DNA from: Rugalucina vietnamica
Taxonomy: Eukaryota > Mollusca > Bivalvia > Lucinida > Lucinidae
Assembly: GCA_964017185.1 (NCBI GenBank)
Contig: OZ024870.1
Span: 24,265,621 to 24,329,620, forward strand
Direction: 5' to 3'
Length of the DNA stretch: 64,000 bases
Shown: in pieces, positions 4,901 to 61,508 of the stretch
Numbering within the stretch: the stretch's first letter is position 1
Layout of the letters: each line of letters starts with the position of its first letter
Position numbers and translations under genes: made by a program
Notes under the pieces: model-generated
Database searches by the model: none
What the model was told of the DNA's origin: nothing
Seen by the model: only the letters and a program-made list of their open reading frames with translations

Positions 4901-5087
4901 CGTCCGCGTCACACTTTTGGTCACAGTTTTTAAAATCGTTATATCTGGGTAGTCACTGACCAGAAATCATTCATATTTGGAACATTGCTGCATATGAGGG
5001 TCCTCTGTGATTTAGTGTGAAGGGACCCGTGGGGTCATGCCTGGGGGCGGGGCTAGAGGTCAATATCTAGAACACCTTTGTACAATG

Positions 5088-5819
5088 CTCAGATGCTGTG
5101 TTAGTTTCTCATCAACTGTAAAGCCTAGAACTGTCAAACCTTACATAAGGCTTCTCCTCGATGTCCTGACTCGGCACCCACATTGACCTACTGACCTTGA
5201 CCTATATTTCATGCTCCAGTGACTTTGTCATTTTTGAAGCCAACCCTTAATATCTCATCAACTATAAAGCCTACAACCATCAAACCTTGCATATGGCTTC
5301 TCTTTGATATCCCGACTCTGCACCCTCATTGACCTACTAACCTTGACCTATATTTCATGCTCCAGTGACTTTGTCATTTTTGAAGCCAACTCTTAATATC
5401 TCATCAACTATAAAGCCTACAACCATCAAACCTTGCATATGGCTTATCCTCGATGTCCCGACTTTGCACCCACATTGATCTAGTGACCTTGACCTATATT
5501 TCATGCTCTAGTGACTTTGTCATTTTTGAAGCCAACTCTTAATATCTCATCAACTATAAAGCCTACAACCATCAAACCTTGCATATGACTTCTCCTAGAT
5601 GTCCCGACTCGGCACCCACATTCGCCTAGTGACCTTGACCTATATTTCGTGCTCTAGTGACTTTGTCATTTTTGAAGCCAACCCTTAATATCTCATCAAC
5701 TATAAAGCCTACAACCATCAAACCTTGCATATGGCTTCTCCTCGATGTCCCGACTCGGCACCCACATTGACCTACTGACCTTGACCTATATTTCATGCTC
5801 CAGTGACTTTGTCATTTTT
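5088..5819 (+). repeat. 146-bp tandem repeat, five units
   Basis: CCTATATTTC recurs at 5201, 5347, 5493, 5639 and 5785, exactly 146 bp apart. Units share TAATATCTCATCAACTATAA and CTACAACCATCAAACCTTGC. A sixth unit at about 7887-8032 is displaced by an insertion (see 5821-7884). Confidence 0.95.
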
Positions 5820-5929
5820 TAGCTCGACTGCACGAAGTGCATAGAGCTATTGCAGTCACCCCGGTCGTCCACGTTCCCGTTCCCGTGCGCGTGCGTGTTC
5901 CCGTGCGCATGCGCGTCACACTTGCGTTA

Positions 5930-6600
5930 AAGTTTTCTAGAAGTCCATATCTTGACAACCACTCATCAGAAAGCATTCATACTTGGACCATAGATACCCT
6001 GTAGGGTTAGCTTTCATTCCATGGCATCGGGCCCCTGGGTCCAGGCCAGGGGGTGGGGCTGGAGGTTAAAATCTAGAACACCTTCAAAAATGGCAATTCT
6101 TGTGTTAAAGTTTTCTAGAAGTCCATATCTTGACAACCACTCATCAGAAAGCATTGATACTTGGGCCATTGACACCCTGTAGGGGCGGCTTTCATTCCAT
6201 GGCATCAGATCCCTGGGTCCATGCCAGGGGGTGGGGCTAGAGGTTAAAATCTAGAACACCATTAATAATAATGGCTTTTCTGTGATATAGTATTCTAGAA
6301 GTCTATATCTTGGAAACTTTTTATCAGAGGGCTTTCATACTCGGACCATAGTTACCCTGTAGGGTTGAGTTTCATTTCATGGCATCGGATCTCTGGGTCC
6401 GTGCCTGAGGGGTGGGGCTGGAGGTTAAAAACTAGAACACTGTAAAAAATAGATGTACTGCTGTGTAACTTTTACAAGGAGTCCATATCTTGACAACAAC
6501 TTATCATAAAGCATTCATACTTCATACACTTTAGGTTCCATGACATCGGACCTCTGGGTCGGAGTCAGGGGGGCGGGGCTAGAGGTCAAAATCTAGAACT
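5930..6600 (+). repeat. ~180-bp tandem repeat, four units
   Basis: AAGTC(C/T)ATATCTTG-type starts occur at 5941, 6119, 6299 and (as AGGAGTCCATAT) 6479. Each unit also carries CATGGCATCGG and GGGGTGGGGCTGGAGG-like segments followed by AAAATCTAGAAC. A diverged unit lies in the outer element near 4935-5085. Confidence 0.9.
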
Positions 6601-6719
6601 CCCTGAATTTTTTTTTCTTTTTATTTCTTAATAGAAACAACTTAGGAAGATGGTTGGTCATTCATCTTTTGACTTTGTGACACTGACTTGTGTGTCATGA
6701 CGGTAAGCGTCGGTTGACC

Positions 6720-7770
6720 TACTTTCCGTGGTTCAGTGATTTTGCCTTATATCTTGGCACTCAATTAGTATATTTTCTTACTTCTTTCAGATTATGAGTG
6801 AGTATGACCAGGCCTTTGACCCCAATATACTTATAGGTCACTGTGACCTAATTTCACAGTTCAGTGATTTTGCCTTATATCTTGACACTCAATTTGTATA
6901 TTTTCATACTTTTTTCAGATTATGAGTGAGTATGACCAGACCTTTGACTCCAATATACTTATAGGTCACTGTGACCTAATTTTACGGTTCAGTGATTTTG
7001 CCTTATATCTCGGTACTCAAATGGTTTATGAACAAACTTCTTTCAAAGTATGTTTGCGTATGACAAGACCTTTGACCCTGAAGTAGTTCTAGGTCACTGT
7101 GACCTAATTTCATGGTTCAGTGATTTTGCCTTATATCTTGACACTCAATTAGTATATTTTCATACTTTTTTCAGATTATGAGTGAGTATGACCAGACCTT
7201 TGACCCCAATATACTTATAGGTCACTGTGACCTAATTTCACAGTTCAGTGATTTTGCCTTATATCTCAGTACTCAAATGGTTTATGAACAAACTTCTTTC
7301 AAAGTATGTTTGCCTATGACAAGACCTTTGACCCTGAAGTAGTCCTAGGTCACTGTGACCTAATTTCACGGTTCAGTGATTTTGCCTTATATCTTGTCTG
7401 TGTCTTATATCTTATATAAGTTGGTATTTTTCATACTTATTTCTGATTATGAATGAGTATGACCAGACCTTTAACCCAAACATACTTATAGGTCACTATG
7501 ACATAATTTCATGGTTCAGTGATTTTGCTTTATATCTCAACACTGAATGGGTATATGATCATATTTCTTTCACATTATGAGTAAGTATCACTAGACCTTT
7601 GACCCTGAAATACTTATAGGTCAGTGTGACCTTATTTCATGGTTCAGTGATTTTGCCTTGTGTCTTGACACTCAGTTGGTATATGAACACACTTCTTTCA
7701 CAATATGAGTGAGACCTTTAAATCTTAGGTAGTTATAGTTAACTTTCATGGTTCAATGATTTTGCCTTAT
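6720..7770 (+). repeat. 128-bp tandem repeat carrying estrogen-response-element-like palindromes
   Basis: AGGTCACTGTGACCT is at 6835, 6963, 7091, 7219 and 7347 (exactly 128 bp apart). A degenerate copy AGGTCACTATGACAT is at 7490, and AGGTCAGTGTGACCT at 7618. Units also share GGTTCAGTGATTTTGCCTTA. The palindrome is two AGGTCA half-sites inverted with a 3-nt spacer (IR3), the consensus form of an estrogen response element. Confidence 0.93.
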
Positions 7771-8032
7771 TGCATCAAGGCGAAAAGATTTATGAGCATA
7801 ATGCTTTGGGTTACTGGTCGGGTTTGGCCTTATGTTTGACAAAGGTAAGAAGCAGTCGAGCATGCTGTCCTGCGACAGCTCTTATTAAGCCAACCCTTAA
7901 TATCTCATCAATTATAAAGCCTACAACCATCAAACCTTGCATATGGCTTCTCCTCGATGTCCCGACTTTGCACCCACTTTGATCTAGTGACCTTGACCTA
8001 TATTTCGTGCTCTAGTGACTTTTTCATTTAAG

Positions 8033-8510
8033 TTTTTAGAAGTCTATATCTCTTGAACATGTTGATGGATCAAGTTGATACTTTGCGTGTTGGTAGATAT
8101 TTGTCTGAAGTTTTATGCAGTACCATCATGACCCACCCTGGGTGACCTTGAGGTCAAGGTCACAGACTTAGATTTTTTTTGTTAAAGTTTTCTGTTAAAG
8201 TTTTTAGAAGTCTATATCTCTTGAACATGTAGATGGATCAAGTTGATACTTTGCATGTTGGTAGATATTGGTCTGAAGTTTTATGCTGTATCATTATGAC
8301 CCACCCTGAGTGAACTTGAGGTCAAGGTCATGGCCTTAGAAATTTTTGTTTAAAGTTTTGGGTTAAAGACTTTTGAAGTCTATATATCTCTATGTTGATG
8401 GATCAAGTTGAAACTTTGCATGTTTGTGGATATTGGTCTGAAATTTTATGCTGTACCATCACAAACCACCTGAGCGACCTTGAGGTCAAGGTCATGGGTC
8501 ATAGATTTTG
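8033..8510 (+). repeat. ~168-bp tandem repeat carrying TCAAGGTCA inverted pairs, three units
   Basis: TGACCTTGAGGTCAAGGTCA is at 8143-8162, with one- or two-base variants at 8311 and 8475. Units begin near AAGTTTTTAGAAGTCTATAT and share GATGGATCAAGTTGATACTT. The same unit forms the core of the element at 9719-10541. Confidence 0.92.
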
Positions 8511-8571
8511 GTAAGTTTAGTGGCAAAGCACAAGTCAGGCGAGCTACGCTGTCCTGCGACAGCTCTTATTT

Positions 8572-9718: not shown

Positions 9719-10541
9719 AGCTCGCCTGCACGAAGTGCATAGAGCTATTGTAGTCACCTCGGTCGTGCGCGTTTACGTTTACGTTTACGTGTGCGTCCGC
9801 GTCCGCGTCCGCGTCACACTTTCGGTTAAAGTTTTTTAAAAGTCTATATCTCTTGACCATGTTGATGGATCAAGTTGATACTTTGCATGTTGCTAGATAT
9901 TGGTCTGAAGTTTTACGCAGTACCATCATGACCCACCCTGGGTGACCTTGAGGTCAAGGTCACAGACTTAGAAATTTTGTGTTTAAGTTTTTGGTTAAAG
10001 TTTTTTAAAAGACTATATCTCTTTACCATGTTGATGGATCAAGTTGATACTTTGCATGTTGCTAGATATCGGTCTGAAGTTTTACGCAGTACCATCATGA
10101 CCCACCCTGGGTGACCTTGAAGTCAAGGTCACAGACTTAGAAATTTTGTGTTTAAGTTTTTGGTTAATGTTTATGTAAGTCTATATCTCTTGACCATATT
10201 GATGGATTGAGTTGATACTTTGCATGTTGCTAGATGTTGGTCTGAAGTTTTATGCAGTACCATCATGACCCACTCTGGATGACCTTGAGGTCAAGGTCAC
10301 AGACTTAAAAATTTTGTGTTTAAGTTTTTGGTTAATGTTTTTGTAAGTCTATATCTCTTGACCATATTGATGGATTGAGTTGATACTTTGCATGTTGCTA
10401 GATATTGGTCTGAAGTTTTACGCAGTACCATCATGACCCACCTGAGTGACCTTGAGGTCAAGGTCATGGGTCATAGATTTTAACAGATGTAGTGGCAAAG
10501 CACAAGTCAGGCGAGCTACGCTGTCCTACGACAGCTCTTAT
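9719..10541 (+). mobile_element. Helentron/pearl-like element, compact copy (~820 bp)
   Basis: It begins AGCTCGCCTGCACGAAGTGC and ends CAGGCGAGCTA (10508-10518), hairpin GCTGTCCTACGACAGC (10520-10535), CTCTTA. Its 5' CGCCTG pairs with its 3' CAGGCG, just as 5' CGACTG pairs with 3' CAGTCG in the copy at 5821. A hexamer run (gtttac, gtccgc) at about 9770-9812 precedes four ~168-bp units with TCAAGGTCA pairs at 9943, 10112, 10280 and 10447. No ORF. Confidence 0.78.
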
Positions 10542-10744
10542 TATGCTTTCAGGCTGCTGAAGAAGCTAAGAAGATGAGACCGAAAGGAACACTAATAGAC
10601 AAGTGATCTGACAGACAAGTGATGGACATGTGCAATTGACAATTGAGTGACATGTGTGATTGACAGATCATGGACACATGCTACAGTGATGTTCTTTATA
10701 AGAAGGTCAAGATTAGGAGTATTTTCTCAATTTTGCTGGAGTTT

Positions 10745-12209: not shown

Positions 12210-12221
12210 AAACCTAAAACG

Positions 12222-12470
12222 GGCGGCCCCCGTGTCCGAGTGGTTAAGGTCGCTGACTTCAGTGCTCTTGATCATTCGATCATCTCACCAATGTGGGTTC
12301 GTGCCTCGCACGGGGCACGAATTCATATGTGAGACAAGCCATGTTCTGCTTTCGGGTGTGTCAGGTGGTTTTTCCCCGGGTACTCCGGTTTTCGCCCCAC
12401 CTACCGATTGATTCGTCTCGATATGAGTGAAAAAGCTCGAAAGACGTAAAACTGAATCCAAAAAAAAAAA
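12222..12470 (+). mobile_element. tRNA-derived SINE, full length with target-site duplication
   Basis: It starts GGCGGCCCCCGTGTCCGAGTGGTTAAGG, split here as head GGCGGCCCCCGTGTCCGAGT. It has a B-box-like GGTTCGTGCCT, the body CGGGTGTGTCAGGTGG and GCCCCACCTACCGATTGATT, and a tail ending in A10. AAACCTAAAAC flanks both sides (12210-12220 and 12475-12485), an 11-bp target-site duplication, so this is a recognisable retroposition event. Confidence 0.93.
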
Positions 12471-36453: not shown

Positions 36454-38839
36454 CGAAACAGATTGTGGGTACACGTTAGAACCGCCTCACGAGTACCCAC
36501 AATCTATATTTTGGAGCAAAAATAACAACAAATAGGTATACCCCTGCATATCTCAGTTTTCTATATAAAATTGGGGTTTAAGGGGGTATATATTGCACGG
36601 ACAGTTTAAGCTTCCCACTGTACTGGGTAAGCTTCAGTAATCTTTCACCCCGACATGAATGCATAAAGTGTTGATTAGGACATCAAGGCATAACCAAACC
36701 AAATCAGAAGTTAAATTGCATTAACATCAAGTTGCTGCACATTGGGGTGTCGTTTGGGTACAAACACCAAGATAAAATAGTCTAAAACTGAAATGGGAGG
36801 CAGAAAATAAGAATAAAATGCAAAGAAAGAAAGAAAAAAAAGAAAAAGAAAAAATTTGGTGCGTGTTAGTAAGTGTTGCAAAACGTAAAAAATTAAAGAT
36901 AGAGACAACAAACAATCCTTTCACCAGCAGGCGACATTGACCAATATTACCGATCGACTGTTTCAAGTTATTTGGACGTAAAGCATAAGCTCGATACTTT
37001 GGACGATCAGTTTCAGTGTGAATAATCACTGTGAGATATTTCAGGTTTGTCATCAATATGTATATGATTTTCTAATAAAGATGTATTGGTTTTTAATGCG
37101 CTTGTTTTTATCGCAAGTATGAATAGGTATTACACTGTACAGCACTGTGAGAAAACCAGCTATGTGGCATTTTGAAGACTCAGGTCCGAGACCGTGAGAA
37201 CGCTGCGAAAGCGACTCGAGCTTTTTACACAACACGAGATTCATTACAAGTAGGAATAGAAGGTACAGAGATTGTCCAATCAAATTTAAAATCCCACCCT
37301 ATACACCAGGTGGGAAAGAAAAATAAACAGTACAAAACATCGCTAAAATGTTACAACATGCATGAAGAGCAAGGTGATTAGCTCTTTCCTAACAAGGTGG
37401 CCATTCGGCTTGCATCAAACATACACACAAGTGACGAGTATAACAGGGAGGTAGACAGAATAAACAGAGCACATGCAAGATAAATCAAAACAGAACCACC
37501 TGGAAACGGACATTAAATAAAACCCCACTTTTTTCCAAAGACAAAGTTAGTTTTCTTTTCGTCGCAGCTTATTTTCTCCCGATCGAAGGTTGTCTGATCA
37601 GGCACGATAAGAAAAAACTAACAGCTATTACCCGTTTCGTGACATTCAAATTTCCGATGAAATTTCTCTTTAAGCAAACAGAATAGCCCCAAATTGGACA
37701 CCGTGTTCTTACCTATGACCCATAAACAGATCAATAGGATGTCAAGCCTTAACATTCGCTCCCTGTTTTGAAAATTTGCTCATAGGCACCGAGGTTGTAG
37801 AATATTTTGGACTAGTGGATACCATGGTGTATGTACTGCTAAAATACAGGGTACGCCATCTATTTTAATACCTTGAAAACAGCTGATCAGTTTAAATCGC
37901 CCAAACTTGGTATGACCACAATTGCTGATAAGCATAAGGCGCCTCGGCTAAAAAAACGCCTTATCAGCAGATTTTGTGAGTTGAACCAGCATTGGGTGAA
38001 AGTATTTTAAGATGATTTTAGCGAAAGAACGTGGCTTTAACTCGATGCCTGTTTTTACGAGGTCTAACGTCCAAGTCGACACTTTTTCAGTCCTAACGGA
38101 GCCTCCGCTTCATGGGTATTAACCAGTACCATGGGGAGTTAGGGTTTTGCTCACGGACACAACACAGTGCAGCCTGTGGGGATCGAATCCAGGACCGAGG
38201 ATTCGGAGTCCGATGCTTTACCACTACGCCACCGCGCTCCTCATCTGAATTTTATGAATTGGACACTTTACCGATCAAGCACGCATTCGAAAGAATTGTA
38301 AACTGATTTTTTTTTTTACTAAAGGGAGAAAAAACTGAGGTTACTTACTTTTCGTTGAGGGTTTCAATTTCATCATCCTTGGCAATTATTTTAGAATCCA
38401 AGGGTGCCGTTTTTTGTTCCAACTCTTTCTGAATATTTCTCAATTCCTCAATTTCTTCCTTGTAAAGGTCGGCGACTCTTGATTGGTCGTAAGCCTTGGC
38501 CTTTTTCAGGCGGTCGATTTCAGCGGTAAGGGCAGCGCAGGTTTGTTCCATCAATTGTTTGTTTGCGATAAGGTCGGCGAACCGGGTGTTAAGGTGGTGT
38601 ATCTCCTCTCGCTCTTTGTCCCGGGTTTGCAGGACATTGTTGATGCCTTCCTTCGTGACTTGTCCGGCGACGCCAGATTTCAGTGCGGGTACTCCGGCGT
38701 AAGATCGCCGCACGGTCGTTCTCTCCACCACGTTACCGCCGTACCCAGGTCCCCCGATGGACGCCCTGACGGAGCTCGGGGCGGTCTTGGTGACCATGAC
38801 ATTTTGGGTCATAACCTGTGATCGCTTTTTCGTAGACAT
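17345..38839 (-). CDS. Cytoplasmic intermediate filament protein gene, lamin-tail type, 11 exons, two predicted tails
   Basis: The gene encodes a structural coiled-coil protein that would assemble into 10-nm cytoplasmic filaments. Joined exons (38839-38349, 36200-36014, 35430-35335, 34294-34127, 33591-33466, 32853-32633, 26377-26331, 20023-19905, 19107-19003, 17906-17781, 17383-17345) keep one frame over 1725 nt, giving 574 residues. The head is about residues 1-71. The rod is about 72-428, near 357 residues, which is lamin-like length and longer than the roughly 310 of vertebrate cytoplasmic IFs. It ends in TYRKLLEGEE (419-428). A lamin tail domain spans about 451-570. No CaaX motif or obvious nuclear localisation signal is present, which favours a cytoplasmic protein over a nuclear lamin. 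Every intron has GT-AG ends. If exon 7 is read through to TAG at 26268-26266, a 466-residue short-tail form results. Splicing is inferred, not shown by transcripts. Confidence 0.93.
17694..17719. repeat. (ATT)n microsatellite, IF intron 10
   Basis: About eight to nine trinucleotide units, between exon 11 and exon 10. Confidence 0.95.
17781..17906 (-). CDS. IF gene exon 10: lamin tail domain, late part
   Basis: 126 nt, 42 codons, phase 0 at both ends: IFGADFKDDKSRGRDDLVGD then PKDCRDWGVGNGDYTLRDNS and KP. The W-G-V-G-N core matches the conserved tryptophan/glycine turn of lamin tails (family form W..G......L.N..G). The acceptor is gtttttcag and the donor is CCA|GTAAGT at 17780. An (ATT)n microsatellite follows in the intron at 17694-17719. 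Confidence 0.92.
18098..18187. repeat. Short inverted-repeat element, IF intron 9
   Basis: TTAACATTCGCTAGGCCCC at the left and GGGACCTTGCGAATGTTAA at the right form imperfect 19-nt ends around about 50 bp. Confidence 0.6.
18390..18785. repeat. Foldback element in IF intron 9, ~190-bp arms
   Basis: CACGTGGTAT at 18393 pairs with ATACCACGTG near 18765. AGGTGCAGTCAATGCAG (about 18493) pairs with CTGCATTGACTGCACCT (about 18645). The centre is near 18585. The arms are imperfect but matched along most of their length. Confidence 0.8.
19003..19107 (-). CDS. IF gene exon 9: lamin tail domain, middle
   Basis: 105 nt, 35 codons, phase 0 at both ends: DCDIGNWSLERKFPRGTSR then FVFPAGYVLKKGQGVK. It corresponds to the family segment IGGW.L.R......Y.FP.GF.LK.G..V. 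The acceptor is ctttactag (AG at 19109-19108) and the donor is AAG|GTAATT at 19002. The upstream intron carries a MITE copy that ends 30 nt before this acceptor. Confidence 0.92.
19138..19372. mobile_element. TIR family A, copy in IF intron 8
   Basis: GAGCCGCCTCGTGGGAAAAC to GTTTTCTCATGTGGCGGCTC. The central palindrome CAGCTTCGCAGTTACTGCGAAGCTG is intact. Its left edge is 30 nt from the exon 9 acceptor, so any branch point lies in the narrow gap or inside the element. Confidence 0.92.
19905..20023 (-). CDS. IF gene exon 8: start of lamin tail domain
   Basis: 119 nt. The acceptor ctttgcag ends at 20024 and the donor is AAG|GTGACT at 19904. With one base carried from exon 7 the frame reads A-MSESTGRINVKKTSKCAVS then LSHDGSYVKLENTSATK. 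This matches the opening of the lamin tail Ig-like fold (family pattern G.I.V.....G...I.....DG.YV.LEN). Direct splicing from exon 6 without exon 7 would put a stop after seven codons, so exon 7 must be included. Confidence 0.88.
20024..26330 (-). other. IF intron 7 (long form); contains 3' UTR of short form
   Basis: 6.3 kb bounded by GT at 26330-26329 and AG at 20025-20024. Contents seen: a family B MITE (24332-24583), a T-run at about 22742-22770, a small direct repeat CACTCCAGAAACGG(A/T)(T/A)AA near 21260 and 21304, and the downstream sequence of the short-tail exon. Its numerous short ORFs show no domain. Confidence 0.75.
24332..24583. mobile_element. TIR family B, near-complete copy
   Basis: CATCAGGATAACATGTCCAT at the left and ATGGACATG-like GGACATGTTTTTCTGATG at the right. 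Both halves are mirrored: CCCCTTAAACCCCACTTTTA ... TAAAAGTGGGTTTAAGGGG, and GATTGTGGGTACTCGTTAGT with CCCACAATGTATGTTTTGG. The plus-strand frame across it (24112-24612) is a by-product of the symmetry. Confidence 0.9.
26266..26377 (-). CDS. IF gene exon 7: short-tail terminal exon with an internal alternative donor
   Basis: The acceptor ttttacag ends at 26378. Joined to exon 6 in phase it reads RDIRRVVEDQSHMRSR, then GGEDLSKIIMGGGGGSSMQSS and TAG (26268-26266). That is a complete 37-residue short tail and gives a 466-residue protein. Within the exon, after CCGAG at 26331, a GTGGGG donor (GT 26330-26329) yields a 47-nt version. Its length is exactly what is needed to enter exon 8 in the lamin-tail frame. 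The exon can therefore act as terminal or internal. AATAAA matches occur downstream on this strand (for example 25883-25878), but I cannot say which one is used. Confidence 0.85.
26737..26880. mobile_element. Palindromic family D, copy 1
   Basis: The core is GCCCCAGATGGGACGCCGCG / TGGCGTCATATCTGGGGC, with TCTAAGCAAACAGAATT on one side and ACTGTTTGCCTATGTCCCAT on the other. The same core recurs at 59405-59640, and decayed copies lie near 37590-37760 and 46335-46520. Confidence 0.75.
29073..29317. mobile_element. TIR family B, copy
   Basis: CATTACGAAAACTTGTCCAT to ACAGACATGTTTTCGTGGTG. The inner GTGGGTACCCAC palindrome and AAAGTGGGGTTTAAGGGGGT are as in other copies. Confidence 0.88.
31405..31454. 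repeat. Poly-T run (interrupted)
   Basis: About 50 nt of T with single interruptions, in IF intron 6. On the minus (sense) strand it is poly-A, possibly a retroposon tail, but no retroposon body was recognised beside it. Confidence 0.9.
31745..31965. mobile_element. TIR family A, copy in IF intron 6
   Basis: TGAGCCGCCTCGTGGGAAAA to CATGTGGCGGCTCA. The central palindrome is shortened (GGCGCAGATCAGCTTCGCAG then ATCTGCGCC). TT flanks both sides. Confidence 0.9.
32331..32563. mobile_element. TIR family A, copy in IF intron 6
   Basis: CAGCCGCGTCGTGAGAAAAC to GTTTTCTCGCGTCGCGGCTC. It lies about 70 nt past the exon 6 donor. Confidence 0.88.
32633..32853 (-). CDS. IF gene exon 6: end of coil 2 with helix-termination motif
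   Basis: 221 nt, residues 357-429 plus two bases. It starts NDALKARLRAREEE and ends LSLETEICTYRKLLEGEEQ. TYRKLLEGEE is the near-invariant IF helix-termination consensus, needed for filament assembly in the family and the strongest single identifier here. The acceptor is cttgtacag and the donor is CAGAG|GTAGGT at 32632, phase 2. A 6.3-kb intron separates it from exon 7. Confidence 0.97.
33466..33591 (-). CDS. IF gene exon 5: coil 2
   Basis: 126 nt, 42 codons, residues 315-356, from LRTIQMGLNKE to NRLRDLEAE, phase 0 at both ends. The acceptor is tttattgcag and the donor is GAG|GTACAG at 33465. It is a continuous coiled coil. The acceptor lies only about 42 bp from the end of a MITE copy (33633-33850). 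Confidence 0.92.
33633..33850. mobile_element. TIR family A, copy in IF intron 4
   Basis: GAGCCTGTGCGTGAAAAC to GGTTTCCCATGCGGAGTCTC, with CCAGGTCCGACACAAATCAG and CGCCTTTGTTTTCGCCTATG inside. It ends about 42 nt upstream of the exon 5 acceptor. Confidence 0.85.
34031..34086. repeat. (ATT)n microsatellite, IF intron 4
   Basis: About 18 trinucleotide units, uninterrupted. Confidence 0.97.
34127..34294 (-). CDS. IF gene exon 4: end of coil 1B and linker to coil 2
   Basis: 168 nt, 56 codons, residues 259-314, from EIEGLRECLRN to KRQYEER, phase 0 at both ends. The acceptor is ttctttcag and the donor is AGG|GTAAAT at 34126. The stretch KPFDIQSVMKKNFAAAVESL followed by SYRDELARVCDENKRQYEER resembles the coil 1B/linker/coil 2 start of protostome IF proteins. 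The next intron holds an (ATT)n run and one copy of the 235-bp TIR element. Confidence 0.92.
34430..35030. repeat. Degenerate GTGGGTGGGGTA repeats filling IF intron 3
   Basis: GTGGGTGGGGTA(T/C) or close variants occur at about 34544, 34611, 34808 and 34956. Most are followed by a GTTAAcgttttctttaacA-like phrase. AGGTACGGTAAAATTTCTTT and GTTATGGTAAAATTTATTTT are half-unit variants. The units are diverged, so the period is not exact. Confidence 0.7.
35335..35430 (-). CDS. IF gene exon 3: coil 1B
   Basis: 96 nt, 32 codons (DLEEAIAAQI to QALLE), residues 227-258, phase 0 at both ends. The acceptor is tttttgcag and the donor is GAG|GTGGGG at 35334. The GTGGGG donor is off the usual GTAAGT consensus, but reading on gives a stop after three codons (V G H *), and the next exon follows in frame. 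The same unusual donor recurs in exon 7. Confidence 0.88.
36014..36200 (-). CDS. IF gene exon 2: coil 1B
   Basis: The acceptor ttcgttgcag ends at 36201 and the donor AAT|GTAAGT has GT at 36013-36012. Joined to exon 1 it completes a Lys codon and reads KLKDAEEQLRKMNDKMGQ onward to NRRLRN, residues 164-226, a clear heptad-repeat coiled coil. It ends in phase 0. It belongs to the coil 1B segment, which in lamins and protostome cytoplasmic IFs carries an extra 42 residues. Confidence 0.92.
36353..36605. mobile_element. TIR family B, copy with a 30-nt T-run
   Basis: CATTACGAAAACTAGCCCAT to ATATATTGCACGGACAGTTT. The inner GATTGTGGGTACACGTTAGA / GAGTACCCACAATCTATATT pair is clear. A T-run at about 36420-36450 sits at the position where other copies have ATTTTTCTTATTTTTGCTC. 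Confidence 0.88.
37590..37760. mobile_element. Family D, decayed copy
   Basis: CGATGAAATTTCTCTTTAAG, AGCAAACAGAATAGCCCCAA and CCTATGACCCATAAACAGAT match the element at 59405. The second arm of the core is lost. Confidence 0.6.
38099..38243 (-). mobile_element. tRNA-derived SINE of a second type
   Basis: On the minus strand it starts GGAGCGCGGTGGCGTAGTGG. The A-box-like TGGCGTAGTGG and B box GGATTCGATCC are spaced as in a tRNA, and a non-tRNA tail follows (CACAGGCTGCACTGTGTTGT). It lies in intron 1. No CCA or intact acceptor stem is seen, so it is not a functional tRNA gene. Confidence 0.78.
38349..38839 (-). CDS. IF gene exon 1: head, coil 1A, start of coil 1B
   Basis: Residues 1-163 plus two bases. 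The ATG at 38839 opens a Ser/Thr/Arg-rich, basic, non-helical head (MSTKKRSQVM, then Gly-rich and Arg-rich parts), typical of IF heads that are regulated by phosphorylation. The rod begins near residue 72. The segment RDKEREEIHHLNTRFADLIA fits the conserved helix-initiation motif of coil 1A (family form LNDRFA.YI), but ANKQLMEQT is more divergent than usual where the family has EKVRFLE. Coil 1B starts near residue 118. The donor is AA|GTAAGT with GT at 38348-38347, phase 2. No in-frame upstream ATG is joined by an evident splice site, so this start is preferred. Confidence 0.93.
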
Positions 38840-40273
38840 TGTCTCTGTGATTTCAGTGAGTTTCTTAACTAAATCCGGGTCAGAAATAATTTTTAGATCT
38901 TAAGTTAATATCCAACAGTTTAAGTTTTCTAAAACAAAAATCCAAAGACAATTTGAAAAGCAAGCAGACGACAAGTAGCTAAAACACTACACCGTGCGCC
39001 GCAACACTCCGTCAAAGAAAGCTCCCGATCGCAAAAGGCTGACTGCAAAGAAAATTGATATATAAAGTAGTAGTATATAGCTTATTAGGTAAATAAAATC
39101 CTGGTGCTTATTCCAGCGTATCGTCTGCTTTGCTCCGATTGGCTGAATTTCCTGCGTGGCTAATTTGCAAACTGGTATAACATGTTTTATACCTTGTGAA
39201 AAAAGAGCCGGTTTAGACAAGGTATCAAAGATAGTTCCAGATCAGCCTGCTAATATATGGACACCAACTTAAAAACTAAAAGCTAAGGATGGGATGCAAG
39301 AAACGATTAACAAATGTGCTGACCAGGCTGTGCGATTGCGTGGGCTGATCAACATATTTGTTGTTCGCATTTGGCACATTAAGTTTTCTCCTGTTTACGA
39401 AAATGTGTTTTATAACTTTTAATCTTAACTTCCGTAGGTGGTTAAAATAGTTTCTTCACAGAAGCGTCTATTTTGTATTTGTATAAAATCGATCTATAGG
39501 CTTAAGCTGGCTGTTTTATTATTTTTGCGTTCAATACTTGACTTATGTTACATGTGAAGATATACTTTCTTGAGCATATACAATGAGAAGGGACCCGCCC
39601 GTTTTCATTAATGATTTTATCGACAGTTTGTTGTTTAACACTTCCACTTTTGTTTCGAGCTTGTATACGTTCAGTCTTGATCTGTTGATTCAGCGTATGT
39701 CAAATATTAATGATTTATCATTTAAGAATTACGGAACTTGGTCAGAAAATTCCTCTTCCATTAATTCAGGAAGCGCGTTTGGCAGTAAGCGGAGAAAGAA
39801 ATGTACACTACGAGTTGGTAACCTGGTCCAAAACAAACAAACAAACAAACAAACAAAAGTGTGGACTAACATTTTGAAACTTACTATTAACATTCGTAAA
39901 ATAATTTAGATTCTTTCTAAATGTTAAAATATCTGCATTTTATTACATAAGTTAAATGCCATGCAACTTTCATCACATCGAAGATCATCATTAAAGGCGA
40001 GAACAGGCGCATGCATTAGTACTAGTAATTTATGTTTTCATTTAGTCGCAATATACATTTTAGTTATAGACCCACAGAATAAAACTGACAGGTATATACC
40101 ATCAAACATTATTGCAACATTAAAACCGAGATTCGTGCATATGTTTTGGCATGAATGACGTGCGAATAATAATGAAAAAAGAAAACAAAACATATAAGCA
40201 GTGATGACACTATATCCCTAGTATGAAATAGACAAGCCTTATTTTGGTATTTGCATAGCAAATACCTCAATCC
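38840..40273. other. Upstream region of the IF gene
   Basis: It presumably holds the promoter and 5' UTR. A (CAAA)n run lies at about 39831-39857. The plus-strand frame 39583-39909 shows no domain. No other gene recognised. Confidence 0.45.
39185..39191 (-). promoter_or_regulatory. Possible TATA box of the IF gene
   Basis: TATAAAA on the minus strand, about 350 bp upstream of the ATG. A second, weaker AT-rich match (TTTATATATC) lies nearer, around 39057-39068. With no transcript start the choice is a guess; a first non-coding exon is also possible. Confidence 0.2.
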
Positions 40274-41640
40274 CATTACGAATACACGCCCATGCAATAT
40301 TAGGCAAAGGGCCAAGTCCAAAAAGAGCCCTATTTCAGATTCTTTTTCAACCCATCTGGTAGAAAAATCCCAGTGGTACAGTGGGTTAGTATAGTCCATA
40401 AGAGGCACTTTGAGCATGGATGCCAGATCTGAAAGTGGTGCAGATTTTTTTTTTTAAGCTAACAAACACACCCGCACTAAATTCGCTAACGTGACTCTGA
40501 TAAATGGGGGTGCACCTACAAAATCAGTCATAACTCAGCTGCCACTAAGCCTAGAGCACATACCTATGTACCATATTACAGCTAAAACATTAGCCTAACT
40601 CGCATAGTAACAAATGCAAATAATATAATTTGCATATTGATGAATATTAATTTTAATCATCATAAAAAGTTAAAAACCATAAAAAATATCAAAACGTGGA
40701 GAAAACAATAAAACACCTTGTTTCATTAATATTCATTAATATACAAAGATATTGTCAAAAGGATTCATAACAAGAGAAAGTTTGCCAAATGGTTTAAGTA
40801 CATTAACCAATTTTTCACAATGATTCGGGCTTTTATTTATTTATTGTCTTTTTTTTATGATATTTCTGACATTTTTAATGTCTTTATATTAAATAAACAT
40901 GAATATGCAAATTTGTTTATTTGCATGATGTGTCAGTGAATCATACCCAGCAGACATTTGACGTCAGTTGGACGTCAGATAGACGTCAGACTCCGACGTC
41001 ATGATGACGTTGGATTTAGGTTGATTTTGAAAGTTTGTTTGACGTCAAAAACAGACGTCATTCTGACGTCAACTACAGACGTCATTCTGACGTCAGAAAA
41101 ACAACGTTGGTTTGATGTCTCAAATGTGACGGCATAATGACGTTGGGGTTAGGTTGATTTTGAAAGTTTGTTTGACGTCAAAAACAGACGTAAATCTGAC
41201 GTGCTAAAACCGATATCGTGAATGTTTGTTCGCAGTTTAGTTAACATTCTGAAATCCTGAAGTGGATTCAGTAGTGCGGTATTGTTATTCCCTTTCACTC
41301 CTTTGATAGAGTCACTCTGATGTTGGTATATCTTATTCATGTCAAATTTTATTGTTATATGGTGCTAAAACAAATAAGACATTAGTGTAAATAATAAGAC
41401 TATTGTGAACAATCAATAATTTAAAATGGTGAAATAAGTATTAAAATATACAAATTTCATTTTCGTCTTAATAGAAGGTTTAATAATTTAGTGAAAGACT
41501 TTATTTTGATTAACAAATAATTATTTTTTTCTAAATTAATTAAGCATGGTGATTTCCGATACGAGACCTAGATATGGCTTTTTTAAAAGTGGCAATGTTG
41601 AAATTATTATTTGAATTTGATGTTGTTACATTTGCGCAAG

Positions 41641-41907
41641 AAATTATGTCAGTTCAAGGGCAGCTAACTCTGTCGACATATGACGTTAGACTTACGTTTG
41701 AATCCGGCGTCATTTCGACGTCATATCAATACGTCCACTGACGTCAGGACTGGACGTCAGGTGGACGTTGGTTATTGGTTGTATGACGTCGTGACCAAAA
41801 TACAACCAATATCCGACGTCAAGTTGACGTCAGATGCCTGCTGGGGACGTGTTTTTCATATATGTCGACAGAGTTAGCTGCCCTTAAACTGACATAATTT
41901 ATTACAC
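41641..41907. mobile_element. TIR element nested in the foldback loop
   Basis: AAATTATGTCAGTTCAAGGG (41640-41659) and CCCTTAAACTGACATAATTT (about 41881-41900) are inverted, and the match runs on through GCAGCTAACTCTGTCGACAT, giving ends of about 40 nt. The middle is GACGTC-rich and directly repeats 44270-44418, including TGCCTGCTGGG. Confidence 0.8.
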
Positions 41908-41919
41908 ATATTATGTATT

Positions 41920-42207
41920 ATCATATGACGTCGCTTTTTTCCAGTGGATAACGTCATGTCATAAAAATCGTATGACCACACGTGTAATAACACTTTTGCG
42001 GGAATACGTAACGTCATTGACGACGTCCGTAACAACAATGTAAATTTTCATTGAAAATATGTCCACTTCGAAGGCGATAAAATCCTATTTTAGAAGTCAT
42101 ATGATAAAACGAATCTTACACTCGTGGTCATTTCATATGAAATTTATTAAACTCGCTGAAGGCTCGTTTAATAAATTTCATATGAAATGACCACTCGTGT
42201 AAGATCC
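41920..42207. mobile_element. Palindromic family C, copy 2 (reverse of 14523-14795)
   Basis: TTCCAGTGGATAACGTCATG, GTAACAACAATGTAAATTTT, then the hairpin ACTCGTGGTCATTTCATATG / CATATGAAATGACCACTCGT with about 40-nt arms around CTCGCTGAAGGCTCG (42112-42207). It is more complete than copy 1 because both hairpin arms are full. Confidence 0.82.
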
Positions 42208-42616
42208 TCAAATTAATATCAAATTCAAATAATAATTTCAACCTTGCCACTTAAAAGTCATATCTGAGTCTGGTATGGGAAATCCCATATTTCGCCCTCA
42301 TGCTTAATTAATGTAGTAACAAATGATTATCTATTAATCAAAATAAAGTCTTTCACTAAATTATCAAACTTTCAATTAAAATGAAAATAAAATTTGTATA
42401 TTTTAATATTTATTTCACCATTGTTCAGAATAATCTTATTTCTCACACTAATGTCTTATTGGTTTTAGTACCATAAAGCAATAAAATTTTGCTTAAATAA
42501 GATGTACCAACATCAGGCTGAATTAATATCTTGAACATTTTGTATGTTCCGAAAAACTCTATCAAAGGAGTGAAGGGGACTATCAAAAGTGCATCACTGC
42601 TCTTCTGAATCCACTG

Positions 42617-43898
42617 TTATTGAAAAATGCGAAAAAATATACACCTTAAACTAATGAAATTTAGCGGAAACGGACACAGATGTAAGTCAGTGTTCCTATA
42701 TAAGGAAAGACCCATCGAGAATGTGTCTACTTATAAATATTTGGGAATTGAATTTAGTTCTTCTGGTACATGGAGCAATGCAATTACAAATATATCAAAT
42801 AGGGGAATGAAGGCACTGTTCTTACTTAAGGGCTATATATGTTCTGGAAATATAAAACCGGGTTTGGGATTGAAACTATTCGATCAGATGATACGGCCTA
42901 TTTTATGTTATGGTTCAGAGATTTGGAGTGCATTTGATGGAAACAGAAAAACTTTCTCAAATATTGATGGCATCTCACAGTTTCTAGATTCCTTAGATAT
43001 AGAAAAGGTACACGTAAAGTTTTGTAAGTTCCTTCTTGGTGTGAATAAACGGGCGATCAATTTAGCTGTAAAGGGGGAACTTGGACGTTTTCCAGTTGGA
43101 ATTTCATGTATGCTACAAGCCTTTAAATACTACTATCACATTCAATCATCAAATAACATATTACTTCGAGAAGCTCTAACATTATCCGAAGACCTTCACA
43201 AAGAAAAGATTTTTACTTGGTTCTCATTCTTTACAAGTTTATGCAAAATGATAGATGTAAAATCAAATGATGTCACTTTGGAAGCGTTTGTTTTACTAAA
43301 GGAGACATTATGTGAACGGTATATTGAGTTTTGGTCAGATCGTTTAAAAACATTTAGCAAAATGGAAACTTATTGTCTACTGAAACAAAATTTTGGACTA
43401 GAAAATTATATCAGTGATGTCAACATAAGGGAACATAGAATAGCTCTTTCTAAAATGAGAATCAGCAATCATAGATTAGCCATTGAAACTGGTAGATTTT
43501 CGAAGACCCCGAGGAATGAACGGTTATGTATATTTTGTAAGGCTAATAACATATACGAGATAGAAGATGAGCAGCATGTTTTGTTACGATGCTCTAAATT
43601 TAATGATTTAAGAAATGACCTCTTTGATAATGTTAGGAATACTTGTCCAAGAATTGACTCGTTGAATGACGAAAATAAGTTTCTCTACCTTTTAAATTCC
43701 AGTGGTTCGACAATTAAAAACGTAGCAAGATTTGTTCATTCAGCATTTACGACGAACTCTTCAAAAACTTAAAATTGCATATTCATTTGTCAATGTTTGT
43801 TTGTATTTTGTACTTCTTTCATGAATGTACAGTATTTTGTGAATGTCTCATATGAATTGAGATCAAACAATAAAATTATTGTATTGTATTGTATTGTA
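42617..43898 (+). mobile_element. 5'-truncated LINE (non-LTR retrotransposon) with ATTGT tail
   Basis: It contains the 3' part of a reverse-transcriptase frame (next entry), a short 3' UTR and a tail of about four ATTGT units (43877-43898). The 5' end falls just before a TGA next to the first ATG, consistent with 5' truncation on insertion. It interrupts the right arm of the GACGTC foldback. Confidence 0.82.
42627..43772 (+). CDS. LINE reverse transcriptase, C-terminal part (381 residues), partial
   Basis: The frame is uninterrupted from an ATG to TAA. VSTYKYLGIEFSSSGTWSNA (residues 33-52) is the Y.YLG motif that follows the catalytic fingers and palm of non-LTR reverse transcriptases. LFDQMIRPILCYGSEIW (83-99) is the conserved R.ILCYGSEIW-type thumb motif. 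Near the end, C-x2-C ... H-x4-C (CIFCK ... EQHVLLRC) is the zinc-knuckle-like motif at the C-terminus of LINE ORF2. The endonuclease, the catalytic FADD box and the rest of ORF2 are missing, so this copy cannot be autonomous. Lack of stops suggests recent arrival. The ATG is unlikely to be a native start. LINE clade not assigned. Confidence 0.9.
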   Translation: MRKNIHLKLMKFSGNGHRCKSVFLYKERPIENVSTYKYLGIEFSSSGTWSNAITNISNRGMKALFLLKGYICSGNIKPGLGLKLFDQMIRPILCYGSEIWSAFDGNRKTFSNIDGISQFLDSLDIEKVHVKFCKFLLGVNKRAINLAVKGELGRFPVGISCMLQAFKYYYHIQSSNNILLREALTLSEDLHKEKIFTWFSFFTSLCKMIDVKSNDVTLEAFVLLKETLCERYIEFWSDRLKTFSKMETYCLLKQNFGLENYISDVNIREHRIALSKMRISNHRLAIETGRFSKTPRNERLCIFCKANNIYEIEDEQHVLLRCSKFNDLRNDLFDNVRNTCPRIDSLNDENKFLYLLNSSGSTIKNVARFVHSAFTTNSSKT

Positions 43899-44874
43899 TA
43901 TATGACATGAATTCAAACGTCGTTTTTAGGACGTCAGATTGACGTCAGCTTTCAGACGTTAAACCGACGTTGGCTTTAGCACGTCAGATTGACGTCTAGT
44001 TTTGACAACAAACAAACTTTCAAAATCAACCTACTCCAACGTTATTATGACGTTGGAGTCTGACGTCAATCTGACGTCCAACGGACGTCAAATGTCTGCT
44101 GGAAATAACATAGAAAAAAAAGAAAGGAAGAAAGCAAAAGAAACACACGAAACGAATGATCTGATTTTTACCCAAAGTGAAGTTTCATTAATTTGCACAC
44201 CACACATGGTCAGAAGTATGAAAAACACAAGGTCTAAATCACGTCTTGATTACGACGTCTAACTGACGAACTAGTTTGACGTCAAAACAACGTCCAATCC
44301 AGACGTCCAAAAGACGTCAGGAAATGACGTCTGATAGACGTTGGAAATTGGTTATATGACGTCGCGACCAAAATATAACCAATATCTGACGTCAAACAGA
44401 CGTCAGGTGCCTGCTGGGATAGGGATATGTCTAAGCTCTAAAATAAGACCAAGTTTGGTGGTCCAGGGTAAGAAGCAGCAGAAATATGATGAGTTCTGTA
44501 GTCACATTCCCAATTCAGAGAAACACATAATGGGTTGCCATGGAAACCGTTATTCTATGTATCTGGGTTGAGTTTATTCAAGGCAAAAACTTTGATTACA
44601 ATTCAGGAGTCTCAAGAAATAAATTGACACCCATGAGAAGTAGTATTGGGTGTTTTGGGTGCAAGATCAGCCTTACTATCCCCGATAATGTGAAATAATT
44701 GTATTTTTAGTGGGTGGGGTAACAAAATGGCGTCTGTAAAAATCTGCACCACTTTTGTTTCTGGCATCCACCCTAATTTAACTTCTATATAGTTATACTT
44801 TTGCCTGGTACCAAAGAAATTTTTCTACCAGACGGGTTGAAAAGAATTTGACTCCAGCTGACCAGCCCTCTGAC

Positions 44875-61266: not shown

Positions 61267-61508
61267 ATGGCCGAGGCCGAGTGGTTAAGGTCGCTGACTT
61301 CAGTGCTCTTGATCATTCGATCATCTCACCGCTATAGGTTCGCGCCTCGCACGGGGCACGAGTCACATGTGGGACAAGCCAAGTTCTGCTTGCGGGTGTG
61401 TCAGGTGGTCTTTCCCCGGGTACTCCGGTTTTCGCCCCACCTACCGATTGATTCGTCTCGATATGAGTGAAAAAGCTTGAAAGGGGCGTAAAACTGAATA
61501 AAAAAAAA
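61267..61508 (+). mobile_element. tRNA-derived SINE, full length
   Basis: GGCCGAGGCCGAGTGGTTAA head, the segment CTTGATCATTCGATCATCTC shared with the copy at 12222, B-box-like GGTTCGCGCCT, the same body and an AAACTGAATAAAAAAAA tail. No clear target duplication. Confidence 0.9.

Follow-up and report, generated by a model that had tools for sequence, protein, structure and literature searches.

Satellite arrays within non-autonomous Helentrons (HINEs) and receptor sites borne by transposons are both already known, each separately. Two mobile elements that carry sites for proteins are Alu, a retrotransposed SINE, and Drosophila ISX, a Helitron. One transposon family can supply most copies of a receptor site, as Alu does for the DR2 retinoic-acid response element: 90% of the 108,582 human DR2 motifs are placed in Alu, with ChIP evidence of binding for several Alu-DR2 elements (PMC1785376). 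Alu repeats are reported to carry HNF4 sites as well (PMC3252374). ISX is described as having dispersed binding sites for MSL, 77 of them on the new X chromosome (PMC4384637).

The closest described relatives in anatomy are the Cg_HINE elements of Crassostrea gigas. They are non-autonomous Helentrons with subterminal inverted repeats (subTIRs), a 5′ inverted repeat, a microsatellite and a 3′ palindrome, and they sit at T-rich targets without duplication of the target (PMC7492417). Their centre is made of satellite-like arrays, related ends can enclose unrelated repeats, and some elements hold two consecutive arrays (PMC7492417). Pearl elements and the BIV160, Cg170 and HindIII satellites of bivalves are likewise described as short arrays of ~160-bp repeats in mobile elements, and a large bivalve satellite family is said to share two well-conserved motifs (PMC5139131, PMC7492417).

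The array and the elements around it

We analysed a stretch of 64,000 nucleotides from Rugalucina vietnamica (contig OZ024870.1, positions 24,265,621 to 24,329,620 of the forward strand; hereafter the window), which contains a 128-bp satellite, and followed that satellite through the genome. An inverted repeat of AGGTCA with a spacing of three is the classical binding site for receptors of the estrogen type (estrogen-response element, ERE). The array and its palindromes are as follows.

6715–7713, + strand: 128-bp satellite array, 7.7 copies (Tandem Repeats Finder); seven of its units each hold an ERE-type palindrome
6835–6849, + strand: AGGTCACTGTGACCT, inverted repeat with spacing 3
6963–6977, + strand: AGGTCACTGTGACCT
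7091–7105, + strand: AGGTCACTGTGACCT
7194–7206, − strand: block AGACCTTTGACCC, invariant between the consensus sequences of the 128-bp monomer classes (n = 3)
7219–7233, + strand: AGGTCACTGTGACCT
7347–7361, + strand: AGGTCACTGTGACCT
7490–7504, + strand: degenerate copy AGGTCACTATGACAT, a step of 143 from the previous palindrome
7618–7632, + strand: AGGTCAGTGTGACCT, a step of 128 from the degenerate copy at 7490

The preliminary description had reported palindromes at an exact 128-bp period inside a mobile element. Both observations were confirmed: five copies of AGGTCACTGTGACCT, with AGGTCAGTGTGACCT and the degenerate AGGTCACTATGACAT, occupy the positions given, and the array lies between defined element ends at 5821 and 7886. 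Its further claim, that the palindrome occupies a better-conserved portion of the unit, was confirmed with one reservation: among the seven units of the window the 15 bp were 97% identical, compared to 89% for the whole unit, but ranked only 13th of 114 windows of that length. The block AGACCTTTGACCC, read by eye on the minus strand, is GGGTCA-A-AGGTCT, a receptor-type direct repeat with a spacing of 1.

The window held 14 matches to AGGTCAnnnTGACCT at up to two mismatches, compared to 1.82 expected from shuffles (the largest of 100 shuffles gave 6). Seven belonged to the 128-bp array and seven were ACGTCAnnnTGACGT sites at 41–44 kb. Half-sites numbered 48 inside the elements of the window (3.2 expected from shuffles) and 16 in its remainder (22.6 expected).

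Three elements of one kind, A, B and C, lie close together in the window, and B, which carries the 128-bp array, is inserted into A.

4915–8570, + strand: element A, interrupted by element B; first recognised unit at 4915; order 178-like unit, 146-bp array, element B, 146-bp unit, 168-bp array, 3′ end
5107–5819, + strand: element A, array of the 146-bp satellite; contains TGACCT as direct repeats (TGACCTTGACCT)
5821–7886, + strand: element B, 2,066 bp, non-autonomous and Helentron-like (HINE); 5′ end AGCTCGACTGC, 3′ end CTCTTATT
5822–5831, + strand: 5′ subTIR of element B, GCTCGACTGC, 10 bp, with its reverse complement at 7852
5826–5857, + strand: 5′ internal inverted repeat of element B, GACTGCA (5826) and TGCAGTC (5851), 7-bp arms 18 bp apart
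5879–5913, + strand: microsatellite-like segment in the left module of element B, 18-bp unit, 1.9 copies (Tandem Repeats Finder)
5921–6522, + strand: 178-bp satellite array of element B, 3.4 copies; its consensus has AGGTTA and no intact half-site
7852–7861, + strand: 3′ subTIR of element B, GCAGTCGAGC
7864–7879, + strand: 3′ palindrome of element B, GCTGTC-CTGC-GACAGC, 7 bases before the end
8030–8494, + strand: 168-bp satellite array of element A, with boxes of the TGACCTTGAGGTCAAGGTCA type
9719–10542, + strand: element C, complete, both ends found; 168-bp array only (9820–10466)

Element B has the anatomy of a HINE: subTIRs, an internal inverted repeat, a microsatellite, a 3′ palindrome and a T-rich target. 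Its ends, AGCTCGACTGC and CTCTTATT, also delimit copies elsewhere, mostly in different flanks, and the 146-bp unit of element A picks up again at 7887, directly after element B. Element C has the subTIR AGCTCGCCTG at 9719 and its complement at 10508, and no 5′ end of element A was recognised within the window. Among the copies compared, all 21 recognised 5′ ends were preceded by TT or a longer run of T, 22 of 23 3′ ends were CTCTTATT and the remaining one was CTCTTATC; inspection by eye showed no target-site duplication. Flanks differed among most copies, with the exception of two loci (L015 and L018) that share a flanking repeat. The 3′ palindrome folds as a 6-bp hairpin (−5.7 kcal/mol), with a z-score of only −1.1, and 33 of 200 shuffled sequences folded as well. 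Scans of the window with Rfam (at the gathering threshold) and for tRNAs returned no matches.

Compared with Cg_HINE, by description rather than by sequence, element B differs in its dimensions. Its 128-bp unit is shorter than the Cg_HINE consensus units of 138–181 bp, its subTIRs are 10 bp rather than 11–12 bp long, and the arms of its internal inverted repeat are 18 bp apart rather than 1–12 (PMC7492417). The available text on Cg_HINE mentions no nuclear-receptor site (PMC7492417).

Several other features of the window were recorded. Palindromes of the GACGTC or TGACGTCA type are dense at 40960–41830, partly in 24-bp tandem units; we take them to be the CRE consensus. The seven ACGTCAnnnTGACGT matches, at 40996–44077, form another repeat built on a palindrome resembling a transcription-factor site. 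On the minus strand, an open frame at 38345–38899 resembles an intermediate filament protein, with a match to Pfam Filament (E = 1.7e-7) that falls short of the curated cut-off, and is probably an exon of a host gene. To the eye, a 382-residue open frame at 42624–43772 resembles the end portion of a protein of non-LTR retrotransposons; it had no Pfam match at E = 0.001. A 121-bp repeat, 95% identical between 12323–12443 and 61363–61483, has a tRNA-like head, GTGTCCGAGTGGTTAAGG, ahead of it at 12221; the tRNA scan of the window gave no gene, and the repeat, at 12221–12470 and around 61363–61483, is probably a SINE.

Numbers and distribution in the genome

We scanned 1,089,854,562 bases (1.09 Gb) in 47 contigs. 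Perfect AGGTCAnnnTGACCT sites numbered 22,978, compared to 20 for a control in which the pattern was reversed. In 19,864 of them (86%; 9,878 + 9,986) the next bases were NATTTCA, as beside the palindrome in the 128-bp unit; the control gave 0. These counts bear out the suggestion that copies of the element have spread arrays of ERE-type sites. A chance origin of the palindromes is ruled out by the window shuffles together with the genome-wide control, which was one pattern, the site read backwards. The exact 21-base 3′ end of the elements occurred 5,277 times (2,626 + 2,651; control 0). The AGGTCAnnnTGACCT matches listed comprised 83 distinct sites, of which 77 had a neighbour 127–129 bp away and five lay beside arrays at steps of 136–390 bp; thus 82 of these 83 were in arrays, judged by spacing, and one, at C1:2265558, was alone.

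Two samples of copies were drawn. The first consisted of the best 20 of 40 scored array matches after the window's own, and favours copies resembling that of the window. The second comprised 39 loci found by the 3′ end alone, hand-picked for spacing from 100 matches listed, all on contig C1. Among these 39, the 128-bp array was present at 14; eight had both the 146- and the 168-bp array, 16 had the 168-bp array alone, and one (L062) had none. In the first sample, the first-drawn part of the second and the window, 25 elements classed as having a 128-bp array had both ends; each held 5–12 perfect EREs (mean 7.9), and their first 720 bp differed by a median of 3.2% and a maximum of 7.5%. The closest pair differed by 0.14% and lay on different contigs, which suggests recent movement.

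The sampled 3′ end at L062, which lacks all four satellites, shows repeated GGTCGGCA words in its first bases. Copies were sometimes clustered: two 3′ ends lie 2.3 kb apart at another locus (L009), and five lie within 18.4 kb on C1 (C1:1873722-1894819). ERE positions near 1877010 recur near 1883341 on this contig, displaced by 6,331 bp, which suggests local duplication. Beyond this genome, IMG/VR gave no exact match to two patterns, and in GTDB five bacterial contigs matched a 20-base box exactly, which we took as chance.

Conservation of the half-sites and the sister satellites

We compared 222 full 128-bp monomers from the 20 best array loci and the window. The 12 half-site columns diverged by 1.9% and the three spacer columns by 12.3%, compared to a mean of 12.2% and a median of 3.2% for the rest of the unit. 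The palindrome is not, as a 15-bp whole, the most conserved part of the unit: it ranked 23rd of 110 windows, and the best was GTTCAGTGATTTTGC.

The monomers fell into three classes (114, 87 and 21). Between the class consensus sequences 30 of 126 columns differed; one of these was a spacer column, and the 12 half-site columns were all the same (P = 0.03). Within classes, the half-sites diverged by 1.9%, while elsewhere the mean was 5.6% (permutation P = 0.026) and the median 1.8%; tested against columns fixed between classes, the difference gave P = 0.11. Thus the half-sites are held in source lineages, whereas for single insertions this is not clear. Selection acting on separate copies is accordingly unsupported, the half-sites there being close to the median column. 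The geometry of the site was exact: at the 39 loci, all 97 close inverted pairs had a spacing of 3 (spacings of 0–10 were searched), and nine different spacer sequences occurred among them, so that the letters of the spacer vary and their number is fixed.

The 146- and 168-bp satellites lie in elements with the 3′ end of the 128-bp elements and allowed a wider rate test. The 39 loci supplied 123 monomers of the 128-bp unit, 31 of the 146-bp unit and 72 of the 168-bp unit, for which we counted parsimony changes on a FastTree tree. A half-site was the slowest hexamer in every unit: TGACCT in the 128-bp unit (1st of 114) and the 146-bp unit (1st of 133); for the 168-bp unit it was AGGTCA (1st of 155). 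The remaining half-sites were less slow or ordinary, with AGGTCA 13th of 114 in the 128-bp unit, ranks of 6 and 32 of 133 in the 146-bp unit (the latter for TGACCT at column 76), and ranks of 78 and 38 of 155 for TGACCT at 114 and AGGTCA at 128 in the 168-bp unit. Only in the 146-bp unit was the slowest 12-mer a pair of half-sites (TGACCTTGACCT); for the 128- and 168-bp units it was TTCAGTGATTTT and GTTGATACTTTG, respectively. The expectation that the palindrome evolves more slowly than the rest of its unit across copies therefore holds for the half-sites; the 15 bp taken together are not the most conserved stretch, ranking 23rd of 110.

Over the three families, half-site columns underwent 47 changes, compared to 89.9 expected from the same trinucleotides elsewhere in the units (ratios 0.44, 0.28 and 0.68). 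The combined circular-shift P for this deficit was 5e-5, and the single families gave 0.0079, 0.0069 and 0.12, the 168-bp family not being significant. Combined values were 1e-4 without context correction, 5.5e-4 without CpG columns and 4.5e-4 by plain divergence. An earlier subset (the first 20 of the 39 loci and the window) gave a combined P of 4.5e-4, and 0.004 without CpG columns; there the 146-bp family alone was not significant by divergence (0.18).

The three satellites also have the half-site itself in common. AGGTCA, counted together with the overlapping words GGTCAA and AAGGTC, was the sole hexamer common to the 128-, 146- and 168-bp consensus units, which hold 2, 3 and 3 copies; no hexamer in any of 2,000 shuffles reached two copies in every unit and 7 altogether. 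Across 29 elements whose two ends were both present (40,778 bp, both strands) AGGTCA occurred 435 times, compared to 27.7 in shuffles, and was present in all 29, whereas the reversed control hexamer TCCAGT occurred 16 times (26 in shuffles). These elements contained 150 copies of TCAAGGTCA (0.67 in shuffles; 21 of 29 elements) and 51 EREs (8 of 29 elements). The arrangement of the half-sites differs between satellites, being inverted with a spacing of 3 in the 128-bp unit and, in the sister satellites, direct with a spacing of 0 or in the extended form TCAAGGTCA. As two sister satellites arrange this half-site differently, the finding reaches beyond sites for estrogen receptors.

A site in all four satellites was considered and rejected, as the 178-bp consensus reads AGGTTA and lacks the half-site. 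The half-site was also absent from two other tandem arrays in flanks of sampled loci (159 bp in L015 and 151 bp in L024). Close homology of all the satellites was likewise rejected. In pairwise alignments only the 168/178 pair was clear (score 48, shuffled maximum 35); the 128/146 pair was borderline (33, shuffled maximum 34) and the remaining four pairs were within their own shuffles. The 128- and 146-bp units have in common a 30-bp block that includes TGACCT, and these two may therefore have inherited it.

Could the motif be a mere passenger? On that account, which we consider possible but rather unlikely, this is an ordinary HINE satellite: the abundance of the site would reflect amplification, its slow half-sites would reflect descent, homogenisation and uneven mutation, and no protein would read it. 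The near-median divergence of half-sites within subfamilies would fit, as would the equal conservation of other blocks in the 128-bp unit, the 30-bp block and the 178-bp units that do without a half-site. Against it, the rate deficit survives both trinucleotide correction and removal of CpG columns, AGGTCA is the one hexamer shared by three otherwise mostly unalignable satellites, and the spacing is fixed while its letters vary. The passenger account thus needs the context-corrected deficit and the shared hexamer to be coincidence or common descent.

A second alternative, to which we give distinctly less weight, is that the box is read by a protein other than a nuclear receptor, element-encoded or chromosomal, or acts as a DNA structure, serving as a recognition or breakage site that would aid array expansion or recombination. 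Published work on bivalve satellites treats conserved motifs and palindromes in this way, and the two conserved motifs shared by such satellites elsewhere (PMC5139131, PMC7492417), like the recurrence of the present motif in three kinds of tandem array, agree with it. A structural palindrome, however, would have no need for the half-sites to switch from inverted to direct order between satellites, and the link between motif and junction in BIV160/Cg170 is described as lacking statistical support (PMC5139131).

Candidate receptors and comparison with known systems

The nuclear-receptor zinc-finger model gave 75 matches in the genome, mostly exon by exon, and 30 regions were translated. An ER domain is predicted from two exons on contig C4 near 6.684 Mb, with the P-box CEGCKA; its best solved relative was the ancestral steroid receptor AncSR1 (7e-43), followed by estrogen receptor entries including 1hcq (9e-39). 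Two exons on C4 near 58.45 Mb predict an ERR domain (CEACKA; best solved relative 8ifo, 5e-41). Thus, as judged from translated exons, the genome encodes the DNA-binding domains of both ER and ERR. The ER of the snail Marisa cornuarietis is reported to bind GGTCAnnnTGACC without ligand in gel shifts, and its ERR not to bind the ERE, data that are not shown in that paper (PMC3778743). Elsewhere on C4 (C4:30355688-30356251), seven half zinc-finger matches (model positions 2–25) stand in tandem, 82 bp apart.

The explanation that we prefer, and to which we would give about an even chance, is that selection on source elements kept a candidate nuclear-receptor-type site, and that amplification of the HINE satellite made it the main source of ERE-type sites in the genome. 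The array is the central repeat of a HINE that presumably moves by rolling circle with enzymes from a partner element, and each 128-bp unit has an AGGTCA inverted repeat at the estrogen-receptor spacing of three. Source copies may amplify better if they retain a site to which a nuclear receptor of the host binds, both the binding and the benefit being suppositions here; the putative binder would be ER, ERR or another AGGTCA-binding protein expressed in germ cells or the early embryo, and open chromatin or germline transcription could bring the benefit. Amplification has turned the element into the chief supplier of such sites, and copies once inserted would decay largely neutrally.

The anatomy, the copy numbers, the enrichment, the slower change of half-sites, the exact spacing and the encoding of receptor domains have direct support. 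Counting against source-element selection are the rank of the palindrome below the top 15-bp window, the ordinary behaviour of some half-sites and the 178-bp units without the motif; the reported failure of the snail ERR to bind the ERE (PMC3778743) may also weigh against it. A broader version is that Helentron satellites of this lineage, whose central repeats are largely unrelated, converge on AGGTCA in different dimer layouts, with putative binding by host receptors (ER, ERR, NR5) aiding source elements; this we put forward tentatively, as doubtful. Least probable by far is that the arrays are putative regulatory EREs for neighbouring host genes: the consensus sites, over twenty thousand in number, and the ER domain encoded in the genome would suit such a role, but excess conservation within subfamilies is not clear.

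If the broader version is right, almost all consensus EREs of this genome would be docking arrays of a selfish element, and the arrays could also titrate receptors or supply ready-made regulatory sites. The question of EREs in a mollusc now has a count, 22,978 consensus sites with at least 86% in one mobile satellite, and a map of receptor binding in such an animal would have to handle these arrays first. Three satellites with the same 3′ end serve as natural replicates for the direct question of whether sites for host receptors benefit the rolling-circle element that bears them.

The present combination, and its scale, look new. In one open-access library, a literature search brought up no paper that describes receptor sites in satellites of Helentrons or counts EREs in the genome of a mollusc, and four motif strings were found in no paper. 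Compared with the Alu DR2 sites, the candidate receptor sites described here lie in a DNA element of the Helentron type, stand in tandem at a fixed 128-bp period and are inverted repeats with a spacing of 3. For ISX, binding and selection are described as shown (PMC4384637), whereas here receptor binding is a prediction and the copy numbers are far larger.
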